In this document: in pieces, positions 1-46,495 of the stretch
Position numbering within the stretch: position 1 is the first letter of the stretch
How the letters are laid out: each line of letters starts with the position of its first letter
Made by a program: the position numbers and the translations under genes
Notes under the pieces: generated by a model
What the model saw: the letters and a program-made list of their open reading frames with translations, nothing else
What the model was told of the DNA's origin: nothing
Databases searched by the model: none
DNA from: Alphaproteobacteria bacterium
GTDB lineage: Bacteria > Pseudomonadota > Alphaproteobacteria > Elsterales > Elsteraceae
DNA: 64,000 bases
Direction of reading: 5' to 3'
Assembly (NCBI GenBank): GCA_004292755.1
Contig: RDXE01000029.1
Span: forward strand, 62,001 to 126,000

Positions 1-1860
1 CGACAATCCCGCCTGCTCATACTGTCGCTGCGGCGTGTCATGATCCAGATAGAGATCGGGCAACACCATCGGGCGGACGGCGAGGCCGCGGTCCAACAGT
101 CCCTCAACTGCAAGGTGATGCAGCACGTGGGACGCGAAGCCGCCAATTGCCCCTTCCTCAATCGTGATCAGGCAGCGATGCTCCCGCGCGAGGCGTGCGA
201 CCAGATCCGTGTCGAGTGGTCGGCAGAAGCGGGCATCGGCGACGGTCACAGACACGCCCATCGCCGCAAGAGACTCTGCCGCTTCCAGTGCTGCGCCCAA
301 GCGGGTGCCGAAGGACAGGATGGCAGCCTCGGTACCCTCGCGCAGCACCCGACCGCGCCCAACCTCCAGGGGAGACAGGGTTTCCGGCAGCGGTACGCCC
401 ACCCCCTCGCCGCGTGGGAAGCGAAAGGCCGAGGGGCGGTCGTCAATCGCGAGGGCGGTTGCCACCATACGCACCAGCTCCGCCTCATCGGCGGCTGCCA
501 TCAACACCATGCCGGGCAACGCCCCGAGGTAGCCGATGTCAAAGCTGCCTGCATGGGTGGCGCCGTCGGCACCGACCAAGCCAGCGCGGTCAATCGCAAA
601 GCGCACCGGCAGCGATTGCAGGGCGACGTCATGCACCACCTGGTCATAGCCGCGCTGCAGAAAGGTGGAATAGATCGCGCAGACCGGCTTCAACCCCTCG
701 GTCGCCATGCCCGCGGCGAAGGTGACGGCGTGCTGTTCAGCAATGCCGACATCGAAGGTGCGGGTGGGAAAGCGCCGCTGGAACTTATCCAGCCCGGTGC
801 CAGTGGGCATCGCCGCGGTGATGGCAACCACAGTCGGGTCCGCCTCCGCTGCTTTGATCAGCGCGTCGGCGAACACCCCGGTGTAGGACGGTGCCGCTGG
901 CGTGGCCTTCGCCTGGGTACCCGTCACCGGATCGAACTTGACCACGCCGTGATAGCGGTCAGGTGCTGCTTCGGCCGGGGCATAGCCATGGCCCTTGCGG
1001 GTGCGGACATGGACCAGCACGGGGCCGGGATTGTCCCAGTCCCGCACGTTGCGCAACACCGGCAGCAAGTGGGTGAGGTCGTGCCCATCGACGGGGCCGA
1101 CATAGTAGAAGCCCAACTCCTCAAACAAGGTGCCGCCGGTCAAGTAGGTGCGCGCAAACTCCTCCGCCCGCCCCGCGGCCGCCCGGAAGGGGGAGGGCAA
1201 CAGGTCCGCCACCGAGCGGCCAACCTCCCGCAACGCATGGAATGGTTTGGAGGCGAGCAGCCGCACCAGATACTTCGACATCGCGCCGACCGGCGGCGCA
1301 ATCGACATATCATTGTCGTTCAAGATCACGATCAGCCGATTGGGCATCGACCCGGCATTGTTCATCGCCTCATAGGCCATGCCAGCCGACATGGCTCCGT
1401 CGCCAATCACGGCGATCACCCGGTTGTCGCGCCCCAACAAGTCGCGCGCCACCGCCATGCCGAGACCAGCGGAGATGGAGGTGGAGGAATGCGCCGTCCC
1501 AAACGGGTCAAACTCGCTCTCGCTGCGTTTGGTGAAGCCCGACAGGCCACCGCCCTGGCGAATGGTGCGGATGCGATCACGCCGACCGGTGAGAATCTTG
1601 TGCGGATAGGCCTGATGCCCAACGTCCCAGATCAGACGATCGGTGGGGGTGTCAAACAGGTGGTGGATGGCGATGGTCAGCTCGATCACACCCAGGCTGG
1701 CGCCCAAATGCCCACCGGTGCCCGACACGGCATCCACCAATTCCGCGCGCAGGTCCTTCGCCAGTTGTTGCAGCTGATCCAGCGACCAATTGCGCAAGTC
1801 TGCCGGCAGGCGGACCCGATCCAGCATTGGGGTGTGTGGTGGCACGGTATCTGAGGGCAC
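1..1860 (-). CDS. dxs: 1-deoxy-D-xylulose-5-phosphate synthase (3' end cut by window)
   Basis: TPP enzyme that condenses pyruvate with glyceraldehyde-3-phosphate, the first step of the MEP isoprenoid pathway. Reading the minus strand gives GTGGHLGAS near residue 48, the TPP-binding [17 protein letters not shown] near residue 150, and VGPVDGHD further on, all DXS hallmarks. About 620 codons are present; the family has about 640, so only a short C-terminal tail is missing. Start: a GGAGG lies 9 bases before a GTG at 1860; an in-frame ATG at 1869 directly abuts that GGAGG, so GTG is the better start. It follows ispA by about 20 bases as last gene of an xseB-ispA-dxs operon. Long open frames on the opposite strand here are mirror artefacts of GC-rich codon use. 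Confidence 0.97.
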
Positions 1861-8940: not shown

Positions 8941-9034
8941 ACCGGCTTCAGGCGCCTCATGCTGTCAAAGTCGGTCAAGGTTACTGTCGTTCTATCTGAG
9001 CGAACGATTTTGCTTGGCGAGCGACACCAAATGG

Positions 9035-9075
9035 CCCTAAAAAGAGGGCCGCACGAGGCGGCCCGAAGTTTAGGG
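9035..9075 (+). ncRNA. Nested inverted repeat, candidate structured RNA or mRNA leader
   Basis: An outer stem CCCTAAA (9035-9041) / TTTAGGG (9069-9075) encloses a symmetric internal loop AAGA/GAAG. Inside is a perfect 7-bp GC stem GGGCCGC (9046-9052) / GCGGCCC (9058-9064) with loop ACGAG. The right outer arm runs straight into GGAGG (9074-9078), so the fold would occlude a strong Shine-Dalgarno sequence. No start codon follows at the normal distance. It could be a leader structure of the secreted-protein gene downstream or a small RNA. Confidence 0.5.
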
Positions 9076-9081
9076 AGGAAA

Positions 9082-9099
9082 CGTCTGCTCGCGCAGACG
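9082..9099 (+). ncRNA. Second perfect hairpin of the same leader
   Basis: CGTCTGC (9082-9088), loop TCGC, GCAGACG (9093-9099). It sits 6 bases after the nested repeat and just before the candidate starts of the next gene (GTG 9116, ATG 9143). There is no T-run after it, so it is not a classic terminator. Confidence 0.45.
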
Positions 9100-9142
9100 A
9101 GAAACATATAAGCCAGTGGCTCCCGTTGTGCAATGCAGCAAA

Positions 9143-42965: not shown

Positions 42966-43130
42966 TTAGCCTATCACGGGTCATCCGGGTCTCGGTAAGT
43001 TCGCTGCCGACCCCCACTGGGTTACCAGTGCAGCTATAGCGCGCTTTGGTTCACCAAAACAATTGACGCGCGTCGGTATCACCGGGCACCGATAGTCCCA
43101 GCATAACAATGGGCATTGGGGGATGCGCGC

Positions 43131-44405
43131 ATGGAGATTGATCGCTGGGGCTTGCCGATCGCTGAGGCATCGGTCGCGGTGGCAGGGCATCTGGGCGATG
43201 CATGGCTTGCCTATGGCGCCTTGCGCCAAAGCGCCGGCGATCACTTGAAGGCCGCATTCGCCGACGGGGCCGAGGTGCCCCTGGTTCGTCTGAGCCGTGC
43301 CGCGTTTCTAATGCTGTTTGCCCGGGCGGACTTTGCGGCGAAGGCTGCAGCAGACCTTGCCCTGGTGCCCGCCAGTCTGCCCGCGCGCGAAGCGGCCTAC
43401 CGCGATGCCGTCAAAGCCTGGATCGACAACCGCTTCGAGGCCGCAGCCGAGCGGTTGAAGGAGCATCTGGCGATCGCGCCGACGGATTTTCTGGCGGTCA
43501 AGCTGCAGCAATACCTGTTGTTCTATCTTGGCAGCGGTGCCGCGATGGCAGCTGCCTCGCAGCGGTTGATTGACGCCTGGGGCGATGCTGTGCCCGGCTC
43601 GGCGCTGATCTATGGCTGCCGCGCGTTTGATCTGGAGGAGGCGGGCGCACTGGCCGAGGCCGAGATGATCGGGCGCGCGGCCGTGGAGCGCGAGCCGCTG
43701 GACCTTTGGGGCACCCATGCTGTTGCCCATGTTCTGGAGATGCAGGGCCGTGCCGTGGAGGGACTGGCTTGGCTCAGCCAGTGCGAGCCACATTGGCAGG
43801 GGGCAAACCCGTTCATCGGCCATGTCTGGTGGCATCGCGCGTTGATGCTGTTGACGTTGGGGCGGATGGACGAAGCGCTTGACCTCTATGACGGCGCGGT
43901 CGCCGGGTCGGGCAGCGACGATACCCTTGATTTGGCGAATGCGGTGTCGCTGTTGTGGCGGTTGCAGCGCCATCAAGCGCCCATCGGCGATCGCTGGCAG
44001 CGGCTTGCGCTCATCTGTCGGCGCCGCGCGATGGACGTGATGCTACCGTTCCTGGATTTGCATTTGGCACTTGCCTTTGCTGAGGCAGAGCAGGAAGCCG
44101 ATTTGAGCGATCTGGTCGGCCGTATCGCCGCGCGCTGCCACGACGACACCACCGCTGGCCGGGTGCACAAGGCAGTCGGCCACCGGGTTGCGACGGCGCT
44201 ACTCGCCATGGCCCGTGGCCACCGTGCCGAAGGCTTGGCCGCCCTGGTCCCCGCGCTGGAGGACCTGACTGCGATTGGTGGCAGCCATGCGCAGCGCGAC
44301 GTGTTCTGGCAAGTCGCCATCACGGCAGCCCATGCCGAGGGCAGCCACCCGCTTGCCACCACGCTCCTGGCCCAACGGCCAGGCTATGTTCGCGACCCAA
44401 CCTGA
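43131..44405 (+). CDS. Tetratricopeptide protein, TTC38-like
   Basis: About 424 residues of helical repeats. The diagnostic block is LWGTHAVAHVLEMQGRAVEG then WLSQCEPHW, NPFIGHVWWHRALMLLTLGR and MDEALDLYDGAV, the pattern of the TTC38 family shared by bacteria and animals; its biochemical role is unknown. ATG 43131 begins MEIDRWGLPIAEAS and has GGGGG upstream. No obvious functional partner is adjacent. Confidence 0.85.
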   Translation: MEIDRWGLPIAEASVAVAGHLGDAWLAYGALRQSAGDHLKAAFADGAEVPLVRLSRAAFLMLFARADFAAKAAADLALVPASLPAREAAYRDAVKAWIDNRFEAAAERLKEHLAIAPTDFLAVKLQQYLLFYLGSGAAMAAASQRLIDAWGDAVPGSALIYGCRAFDLEEAGALAEAEMIGRAAVEREPLDLWGTHAVAHVLEMQGRAVEGLAWLSQCEPHWQGANPFIGHVWWHRALMLLTLGRMDEALDLYDGAVAGSGSDDTLDLANAVSLLWRLQRHQAPIGDRWQRLALICRRRAMDVMLPFLDLHLALAFAEAEQEADLSDLVGRIAARCHDDTTAGRVHKAVGHRVATALLAMARGHRAEGLAALVPALEDLTAIGGSHAQRDVFWQVAITAAHAEGSHPLATTLLAQRPGYVRDPT

Positions 44406-44499: not shown

Positions 44500-44539
44500 T
44501 TGTCTTCTGTGGATGGATGGATATACTCGTTGTTACAAC
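44500..44539 (+). promoter_or_regulatory. Candidate promoter and palindrome for the NYN gene leader
   Basis: TTGTCT (44500-44505) and TATACT (44522-44527) are 16 bases apart. Immediately downstream is GTTGT-T-ACAAC (44529-44539), a palindrome covering the expected start of transcription, which could be an operator. A transcript would begin near 44533-44535 and run into two hairpins before the NYN start. Confidence 0.5.
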
Positions 44540-44542
44540 CCA

Positions 44543-44560
44543 CCCACAGCTTGCTGTGGG
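44543..44560 (+). ncRNA. Leader hairpin 1 upstream of the NYN gene
   Basis: CCCACAGC (44543-44550), TT, GCTGTGGG (44553-44560): a perfect 8-bp stem with minimal 2-base loop at DNA level, about 10 bases into the predicted transcript. Confidence 0.55.
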
Positions 44561-44563
44561 CTC

Positions 44564-44596
44564 AAAGGCCGCGGTGGTCTAGTCACCGCGGCCTTT
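44564..44596 (+). terminator. Leader hairpin 2, terminator-like, upstream of the NYN gene
   Basis: AAAGGCCGCGGTG (44564-44576), loop GTCTAGT, CACCGCGGCCTTT (44584-44596): a perfect 13-bp stem with A/T ends, followed by GCTTTTG. It resembles an intrinsic terminator with a short T-run, placed between promoter and the NYN ribosome-binding site (GGGAGG, 44607-44612). Leaky termination here would give an abundant short RNA and little mRNA. Confidence 0.55.
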
Positions 44597-44616
44597 GCTT
44601 TTGATAGGGAGGCAGA

Positions 44617-45282
44617 ATGCGAACTTTTGTGTATATTGATGGGTTCAATCTCTATTATAGGATGCTGAAAGGATCGCCTAAACTTAAATGGTTAAATCCC
44701 AAACAGTTGGCGAGTGATTTGCTGTCTCCCGCAAACAAGGTTGAGCGTGTTTGTTTTTACACGGCCCGTATCTCGCCGCGGCCTTCCGATCCTAACGCAC
44801 CTGCGCGTCAAGCAATTTATCTTAAAGCCTTGGCGTCGGTGCCGGAAATCCGTGTTCACACCGGCTCATTTTTAACCTCTGAAGTTTGGATGCCGCTCAC
44901 GCAACCACCTGAAGCAAGACCAAAAGTCTACAATTGGTCTCAACCGCTGCCAAAAGCAGTTCGGGTGGTGAAAACTGAAGAAAAAGGAACTGACGTGAGC
45001 CTTGGTGCTCATCTGGTCCGGGATGCTTTCACCAACATGTTTGATGTGGCAGTTGTTCTCACAAACGACTCAGATCTTATAGAGCCGATTCGAATTGCTG
45101 TGCAAGACGCCAAAAAGACGGTTGGCTTGTTTGCCCCCGTAGAGCATCCCAACCAAGGATTGAAGGCCGTGGTATCGTTCTGTCGACATGTCCGCAAGCA
45201 ACATTTATCCAAAGCACAGTTTCCCGACCCTGTCGTCCTGCCCGACGGGAGCTTGGTCACGCGGCCATCTTCTTGGCGATGA
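44617..45282 (+). CDS. NYN-domain (PIN-like) ribonuclease
   Basis: 221 residues of the NYN/LabA-DUF88 family. The metal-binding acids are visible: D8 in TFVYIDGFNLYYRML, D126 in VKTEEKGTDVSLGAHLVRDA, and D151/D153 in VAVVLTNDSDLIEPIRIAVQ, followed by KKTVGLFAPVEHPNQGLKAV. NYN proteins are RNA-cleaving PIN relatives. The gene is clearly lower in GC than its neighbours, a sign of transfer. It stands alone behind its own promoter and two hairpins. The RBS is strong. No antitoxin or phage-defence protein gene is next to it. Its role is unknown. Confidence 0.9.
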   Translation: MRTFVYIDGFNLYYRMLKGSPKLKWLNPKQLASDLLSPANKVERVCFYTARISPRPSDPNAPARQAIYLKALASVPEIRVHTGSFLTSEVWMPLTQPPEARPKVYNWSQPLPKAVRVVKTEEKGTDVSLGAHLVRDAFTNMFDVAVVLTNDSDLIEPIRIAVQDAKKTVGLFAPVEHPNQGLKAVVSFCRHVRKQHLSKAQFPDPVVLPDGSLVTRPSSWR

Positions 45283-45303: not shown

Positions 45304-46404
45304 CTACACTCGGAGCAGTGCGCCATCGCCCGCATCGGTCAGCAGCCAGAGGTGCCCGTCGGGGCCCTGGCGGACGTCGCGGATGCGACCGATCTCGCGT
45401 TCCAGATGGCGCTCTTCGCGCACCACGCGGGGGCCATCGAGGACCAGACGCACCAGCATTCGACCTGCCAGCGCGCCAGAGACGAGGCTGCCTTGCCAGT
45501 CCGGGCGGCGCGGGGAGGTGACGAAGGCAAGACCGGCAGGCGCGATGGAGGGTGTCCAAAGGTGCAGCGGGTCCTCAATGCCGGGGGCGCTGCGCAGCTC
45601 CGTGATCGTCATGCCGCTGTACTCAACACCGTGGGTCACCACCGGCCAGCCGTAGTTGCGACCAGCCCGCAGCACGTTCACCTCGTCGCCGCCGCGTGGG
45701 CCATGGTCGGTGATCCATGCCTCGCCCGTGGTGGGATGGACGGCCAGACCCTGCGGGTTGCGATGGCCCCAGGAGTGAATCTCCGGTCGCGCGTCGCTGC
45801 GGCCGACGAGAGGATTGTCGGTCGGCACGCGGCCATCCTCGTGCAATCGCAGCACCTTGCCCGCCAGATCATCCAGCCGTTGGGCGCGTTGGCGCTGGTT
45901 GCGCTCGCCCACCGTCGCCAGCAGGGTGCCATCGGGCAGAAAGGCGAGGCGACAACCGAAATGGTGACCGCCCGCTTGGCGCGGTGTTGCTTCGATCAAC
46001 ACCTGGAACCCCTCCAGCCGCGCGCCGTTCAGCCGGGCGCGGGCGATGGTCGTGGCCGCCCCGTCCGCGTGCGGTGCTGCGTAGGACAGATAGATCCAGC
46101 CATTGGTGCCAAAGCGCGGATGCGCGACCACATCCAAAAGGCCGCCTTGATTGACGGCATGGACTGGCGGCACGCCCGCGACCGGCTCCGGCTGCAAGCG
46201 ACCATCGACGATCAGACGCAAGCGCCCTGGTCGCTCGGTCACCAGTTGGCGACCATCGGGCAGGAACGCCACTGCCCAGGGATTCTGCAGGCCACGCACC
46301 ACCTCCACGGGCTGTAGCGCCGCGGCGTGAGTGGGGCGAGAGATCACGGACGTGGTGGTCAGGGCCGCAGCCCCCACCAACAGCGAGCGACGGTCAAGGC
46401 GCAT
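45304..46404 (-). CDS. PQQ-dependent sugar dehydrogenase (Asd/Yli type)
   Basis: About 366 residues. The N-terminus [20 protein letters not shown] has twin arginines and a hydrophobic stretch, a probable Tat signal ending near THAA, so the protein should be periplasmic. Propeller motifs: [80 protein letters not shown] and [12 protein letters not shown], the soluble aldose/sorbosone dehydrogenase pattern. SD AAGGGGAG is 6 bases before ATG 46404. No PQQ biosynthesis gene is in the window. Confidence 0.92.
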
Positions 46405-46495
46405 TGGCATCTCCCCTTGGCGGACCGTCGCACGGACGGTCAACAGGCAAATGGGGATTGGCGGGCATCGCGTCACCCCCTATCGTCGCGCCGCC

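Follow-up and report, generated by a model that had tools for sequence, protein, structure and literature searches.

In the ToxIN, CptIN and TenpIN systems, an RNA partner is encoded 5' of an endoribonuclease behind one promoter, a Rho-independent terminator lies between the RNA and toxin genes, some members carry tandem repeats, and the systems are found on plasmids and prophages (PMC5086642). AbiF/RCd22 combines a stand-alone ribonuclease, an Abi_2 HEPN protein, with an adjacent noncoding RNA that neutralises the nuclease in cis and in trans (PMC12373285). AvcID combines an RNA antitoxin with a deoxycytidylate deaminase, an enzyme that does not belong to the ToxN family (PMC10511110). HEC-09, an Hma-embedded candidate in PADLOC, is a single-protein model that does not include the RNA gene described here.

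In this report, we analyze a locus in an alphaproteobacterial window (the whole stretch of DNA studied, 64,000 nucleotides) in which a predicted two-hairpin RNA precedes a gene for a protein of the same family as HEC-09. The window has the ToxIN-like order, in which one promoter is followed by an RNA gene, a terminator and then a toxin gene (44500-44617), although this order is not universal in the NYN family; tandem repeats in some members and carriage by plasmids and prophages are further likenesses. However, the predicted toxin has an NYN/PIN fold and is not a ToxN homologue, the RNA appears as nested hairpins rather than the known pseudoknot (all structures computed here are nested ones), the module often has a single unit, and its RNA is in some loci oriented convergently or divergently relative to the gene. 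Given the different fold of the toxin and the single unit of the window copy, we do not file the module under ToxIN, CptIN or TenpIN. With AbiF/RCd22 it shares a stand-alone ribonuclease, an adjacent noncoding RNA with two conserved motifs and a prophage location, whereas the HEPN-type Abi_2 protein is unrelated to NYN. By analogy, AbiF/RCd22 is a precedent for a non-ToxN nuclease neutralised in trans by RNA. AvcID also has an enzyme outside the ToxN family, but that enzyme is not a nuclease. A literature search that did not cover bioRxiv or most subscription papers found no report linking NYN or HEC-09 with an RNA partner as one system; a prior description is possible, and the NYN/RNA module is apparently an undescribed family of RNA-based toxin-antitoxin systems.

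The locus in the window

A sequence-only reading had proposed a promoter, a terminator hairpin with a T-run, a ribosome-binding site and an NYN ribonuclease gene, and all were found where it had placed them (Table 1). Promoter-like sites in the region number two, against 0.5 expected. The 13 Watson-Crick pairs read in the terminator-like hairpin (HP2) are present, or 16 pairs if G-U and the closing C-G are included, and CTTTT follows directly, reaching 44602. The first hairpin (HP1), read as 8 bp, proved to be one pair shorter. A GTTGT-T-ACAAC operator had also been suggested. The palindrome exists, but an operator role is unsupported, because relatives do not conserve its left half, and its right half is part of the conserved tag at the 5' end of the RNA.

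Table 1. Features of the RNA and NYN genes in the window
Feature	Position	Strand	Basis
Sigma70-like promoter of the RNA, TTGTCT-16-TATACT	44500..44527	+	Promoter search of region
Predicted trans-acting two-hairpin RNA, ~68 nt	44534..44602	+	Start inferred from -10 box, end inferred from U-run
Conserved single-stranded 5' tag, ACAACCC	44535..44541	+	Comparison with relatives
Hairpin HP1, CCCACAG-CTTG-CTGTGGG, CUUG loop, 7 Watson-Crick bp	44543..44560	+	
Hairpin HP2, AAAGGCCGCGGTG-GTCTAGT-CACCGCGGCCTTT	44564-44596	+	
HP2 and U-run, intrinsic terminator separating the RNA from the NYN gene	44563..44602	+	
Shine-Dalgarno region (AGGGAGG)	44604..44612	+	Sequence
NYN-domain ribonuclease, predicted toxin/effector, PADLOC HEC-09 family, 221 aa	44617..45282	+	

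The leader folds at -42.9 kcal/mol, compared with -29.3 +/- 3.2 for shuffled sequences (z = -4.3), and none of 200 shuffles was equally low. Both strands of the window were scanned for a C-rich tag followed by a hairpin, 0 to 4 nucleotides, a second hairpin and a T-run; the HP1/HP2 pair ranked first, with a score of 30.5 against 28.5 for the runner-up.

The low GC content that had been remarked on is evident: GC is 0.49 to 0.51 over the module and 0.65 to 0.69 in the flanks on both sides, and this island contains the leader, the NYN gene and nothing else. The neighbours are a gene for a 429-aa protein (43116-44405), in which no Pfam match was found, and an opposite-strand gene (45304-46476). 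The module thus resembles a two-part cassette acquired on its own. Insertion borders were sought by empty-site comparison, but relatives of the neighbour gene are just 33 to 38% identical, which is too distant.

Conservation and covariation of the RNA

Homologues were collected from genomes, plasmids, phages and viral contigs. Almost all of them share one RNA plan, namely a sigma70-like promoter, a 5' ACCC tag, HP1, 1 to 4 nucleotides, the HP2 terminator and a U-run, with variants of the C-rich single-stranded tag such as ACAACCC and ACCCC. In the 34 relatives compared, the distance from the end of a -10-like hexamer to HP1, which lies 3' of it, has a median of 14.5 nucleotides and is 8 to 22 nucleotides in 29 of them.

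An alignment of leaders had been proposed as a check, and both hairpins are indeed kept in homologues, with many compensatory changes. RNAalifold recovered both helices from a plain MAFFT alignment of 14 sequences. Two-sided (compensatory) changes occur in 14 of the 18 pairs of this alignment, in 14 of 17 pairs of a second group of 20 sequences and in 8 of 16 pairs of the core HEC-09 group, where the counts are of alignment cells rather than events and some pair changes stem from shared ancestry. Pairing is found in 93.7% of alignment cells, against 29 to 51% when partners are slid, and no shuffle reached the covariation score of the 14-sequence alignment. HP1 is dispensable for termination, yet it covaries by itself: two-sided changes affect five of its seven pairs, and its covariation score was reached by 0 of 500 shuffles.

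Covariance model R1 matches the window at 44531-44605 (71.2 bits, E = 2.8e-20), and in the same genome it revealed no other strong copy (next match 0.018) and no orphans. No Rfam 15 family matched the window RNA or ten related loci above its gathering score, and a search of the leader at a relaxed threshold returned chance matches only. Elsewhere in the window, the Rfam suhB/mmgR small RNA (RF00519) is matched just over its gathering score (9031-9105, reverse strand).

The RNA as a separate gene

The RNA is usually located 5' of the NYN gene; in Thiothrix unzii it lies 5' of a two-gene operon. Other arrangements are found in three RNAs that were outside the training sets of the covariance models. 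In actinobacterial members, the RNA is encoded 3' of NYN and in the opposite orientation. In Mycobacterium prophage MW584179, it closely follows the NYN gene in this way (L055 3192-3118, 45.9 bits), preceded by TTGACA and a -10-like box. A Paenarthrobacter plasmid carries a convergent RNA 3' of NYN (L049 2694-2629, 42.2 bits), and a Rhizobium plasmid a divergent RNA 5' of an NYN-containing operon (L047 1158-1082, 52.5 bits). The core HEC-09 clade (L061-L065), which fits the HEC-09 profile best (315 bits for L062), has the full series of promoter, tag, HP1, HP2 and U-run divergent from NYN; an initial view of this clade as RNA-less was overturned when the RNA was found on the other strand. Divergent RNAs also occur in Flammeovirgaceae (L010) and Thermus oshimai (L147), and -35/-10-like boxes precede the divergent RNAs. 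In all, an opposite-strand RNA, upstream or downstream of NYN, is present in at least nine loci from several clades. Moreover, five loci (L031, L034, L028, L038 and L064) contain duplicates of the entire RNA gene, each copy with a promoter and a terminator of its own, and these terminate before the next promoter.

A 5' leader could be neither on the opposite strand, in convergent or divergent orientation, nor duplicated together with a terminator of its own, so the RNA must act in trans. On this comparative basis, we regard it as a separate, predicted trans-acting RNA, not a leader.

Several of these loci have other features of interest. Two divergent RNA genes (778-832 and 1336-1389, reverse strand) stand beside one NYN gene in L064. 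The neighbourhoods of the Rhizobium and Paenarthrobacter genes are defence-like: NYN is beside a restriction endonuclease gene in the former (L047 2001-4511) and near a HEPN-domain gene in the latter (L049 1-2612).

Repeated HP1 units

No tandem repeats were found in the window, in agreement with the sequence-only reading, and the window copy has a single HP1 unit. Relatives differ in this respect. A 4.6-kb ColE1-like E. coli plasmid (L050) has four HP1 units of about 33 nucleotides each, and the stem of one unit carries compensatory changes. Each of two sister E. coli plasmids has five units, a different unit being duplicated in each plasmid, and Klebsiella plasmids of 4.6 to 5.7 kb have two copies of an HP1 variant, 53 nucleotides apart. 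The ACAACCC tag and a CNUG-loop hairpin are common to the E. coli repeat unit and the single HP1 of the window. By analogy, the copy-number behaviour of HP1 is that of type III antitoxin repeats.

In the repeat-bearing E. coli plasmids, a ColE1-type RNAI lies about 130 nucleotides 5' of the HP1 array (L050 344-445). A gammaproteobacterial subtype of the RNA is distinct: its HP1 is longer, with GCGATTAAGTT as a conserved motif, and its terminator is T-rich (L131 1583-1663, L129 1396-1482). This subtype sits 5' of NYN in a Klebsiella IncR plasmid, whose NYN protein has relatives in some 200 Klebsiella plasmids.

Linkage, distribution and decay

The RNA was found beside 57 of the 63 HEC-09-type NYN genes examined, from many phyla, with about 20 of the 57 identified by hairpin inspection without a model score and three (L071, L075 and L134) the least certain. 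In the tree of the 63 NYN proteins, 50 rows were first labelled RNA-positive and 13 "none"; the RNA was later found in seven of the 13 (L141, L010, L061-L064 and L137), and none was seen in the other six (L011, L030, L036, L072, L136 and L138).

Among 289 genomes of the class, 15 have the NYN gene, 15 have an RNA match classed as strong (at least 38 bits, a threshold set after seeing the gap to background) and 13 have both, compared with about 0.8 expected by chance. The two genomes with RNA only are toxin losses: in G279 the RNA is intact and what is left of NYN next to it is a C-terminal remnant, and G243 has a diverged RNA and no NYN. A second RNA in G065 (G065:C176) is not the orphan that it had seemed, as it adjoins a decayed NYN gene. 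Among R1 matches of 35 bits or less in other genomes, three were inspected (L126-L128); they have no nearby NYN and look like ordinary terminator pairs. Carriers of the module are small mobilizable plasmids, prophages and conjugative plasmids.

The NYN protein

The window protein belongs to the NYN and HEC-09 protein families. It matches Pfam NYN (PF01936) with 25.6 bits (cut-off 24.2, E = 2e-5) and the PADLOC HEC-09 profile PDLC04163 with E = 7.6e-42, and this profile is matched by every homologue tested. An AlphaFold2 model (pLDDT 90.2) has as its closest structures, by VIA comparison, the NYN proteins 2qip and MARF1 (Z 15.5-16.6); the model aligns with 2qip over 156 residues (Z 16.6, rmsd 2.7) and with the MARF1 NYN domain over 146 (Z 16.3, rmsd 2.5). 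The protein is not homologous to the ToxN, CptN and TenpN toxins and is assigned to NYN by sequence and fold; the VIA structure list contains no ToxN-like structures, an absence that alone excludes nothing. Residues D8, N11, E122, D126, D151 and D153 are identical in 63 of 63 homologues. Because the acidic residues are invariant, the enzyme is predicted to be active, and we interpret the protein as an NYN/PIN-fold nuclease with predicted catalytic activity.

Some NYN-family proteins are annotated "6-hydroxy-3-succinoylpyridine 3-monooxygenase" (HspA/nicB) in plasmid records (H104, H128, H129 and L140, the last being NZ_KX893538 87940-88896). This label is probably an annotation error that has been passed on from one plasmid record to another.

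Possible biologic role

We consider it likely that the locus represents a two-gene, mobile, type III-like module of RNA antitoxin and NYN toxin, a predicted endoribonuclease, in which the RNA most likely inhibits the nuclease. The sequence-only reading had offered an RNA-antitoxin-like partner as conjecture, and comparison of homologues supports it. That comparison provides the conserved RNA, its linkage to the gene, the trans arrangement and the predicted catalytic acids, from which we infer the transcription, binding, inhibition, toxicity, target and trigger of the module as follows. The RNA would be transcribed in excess from its own constitutive promoter, ending at HP2, which would restrict read-through, so that occasional read-through yields the ribonuclease. 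The RNA would act in trans on the NYN protein, most likely being bound and keeping it inactive, as type III RNA antitoxins do. A drop in RNA supply, on plasmid loss or on phage shut-off of host transcription, would free the nuclease to cut cellular or phage RNA.

Three observations count against the antitoxin reading: the single unit in the window, the six NYN rows without RNA, and a survey of Pseudomonas strains in which HEC-09 correlated with phage susceptibility, not resistance (PMC12447246). Linkage and covariation would also fit, equally well, an RNA that activates, guides or senses, as would the evidence for a separate gene, and HEC-09 is a candidate defence family. The RNA might thus be an activator, guide or infection sensor in a ribonucleoprotein effector, such that the nuclease depends on the RNA, or the complex is triggered when phages damage the RNA. 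We judge this unlikely, because retention of the RNA after enzyme loss, variation in HP1 copy number and the RNA-terminator-enzyme order seen in the majority of loci suit an antitoxin made in excess better. It is also rather improbable, in our estimate, that the RNA sets when or what an RNA-sensing or RNA-programmed NYN ribonucleoprotein cuts during phage infection. Such a nuclease-noncoding RNA immune effector on a PIN/NYN fold, comparable to the AbiF lineage (the proposed Cas13 ancestor), is a speculative idea to which we give little weight.

Two further explanations make no use of a trans-acting RNA. The position of the RNA directly 5' of NYN in most loci, and the fact that HP2 is a terminator, suit a cis-acting leader, either an attenuator or an autoregulatory site bound or cut by the NYN RNase on its own mRNA. 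The cutting of its own leader by the RNase had been the alternative in the sequence-only reading, and the RNA being a separate gene in several relatives argues against it. With opposite-strand RNAs in several clades and duplicated RNA genes ending at their own terminators, a cis-acting leader is largely refuted and very improbable. Alternatively, since intrinsic terminators are common and strong hairpin pairs turn up in the raw window scan at about 0.07 per kb and strand, one hairpin could simply terminate an upstream unit and the other be there by chance, with NYN as an unrelated orphan gene. Conserved promoter spacing, the covariation of HP1 and linkage across phyla speak against such a coincidence, which is refuted by these comparative data and to which we attach almost no probability.

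Conclusions

RNA-antitoxin systems rest on few protein folds. If the antitoxin/toxin reading is true, this widespread NYN/PIN-based family and its conserved RNA would bring to them both a protein fold and an RNA family that are new, and would account for hundreds of genes for an "NYN domain-containing protein" carried by plasmids of enterobacteria, Pseudomonas, Xanthomonas, Leptospira and Rhizobium. HEC-09, regarded as a defence candidate of one gene, would then have a hidden RNA partner, and tests of HEC-09 with the protein cloned alone may have missed it.
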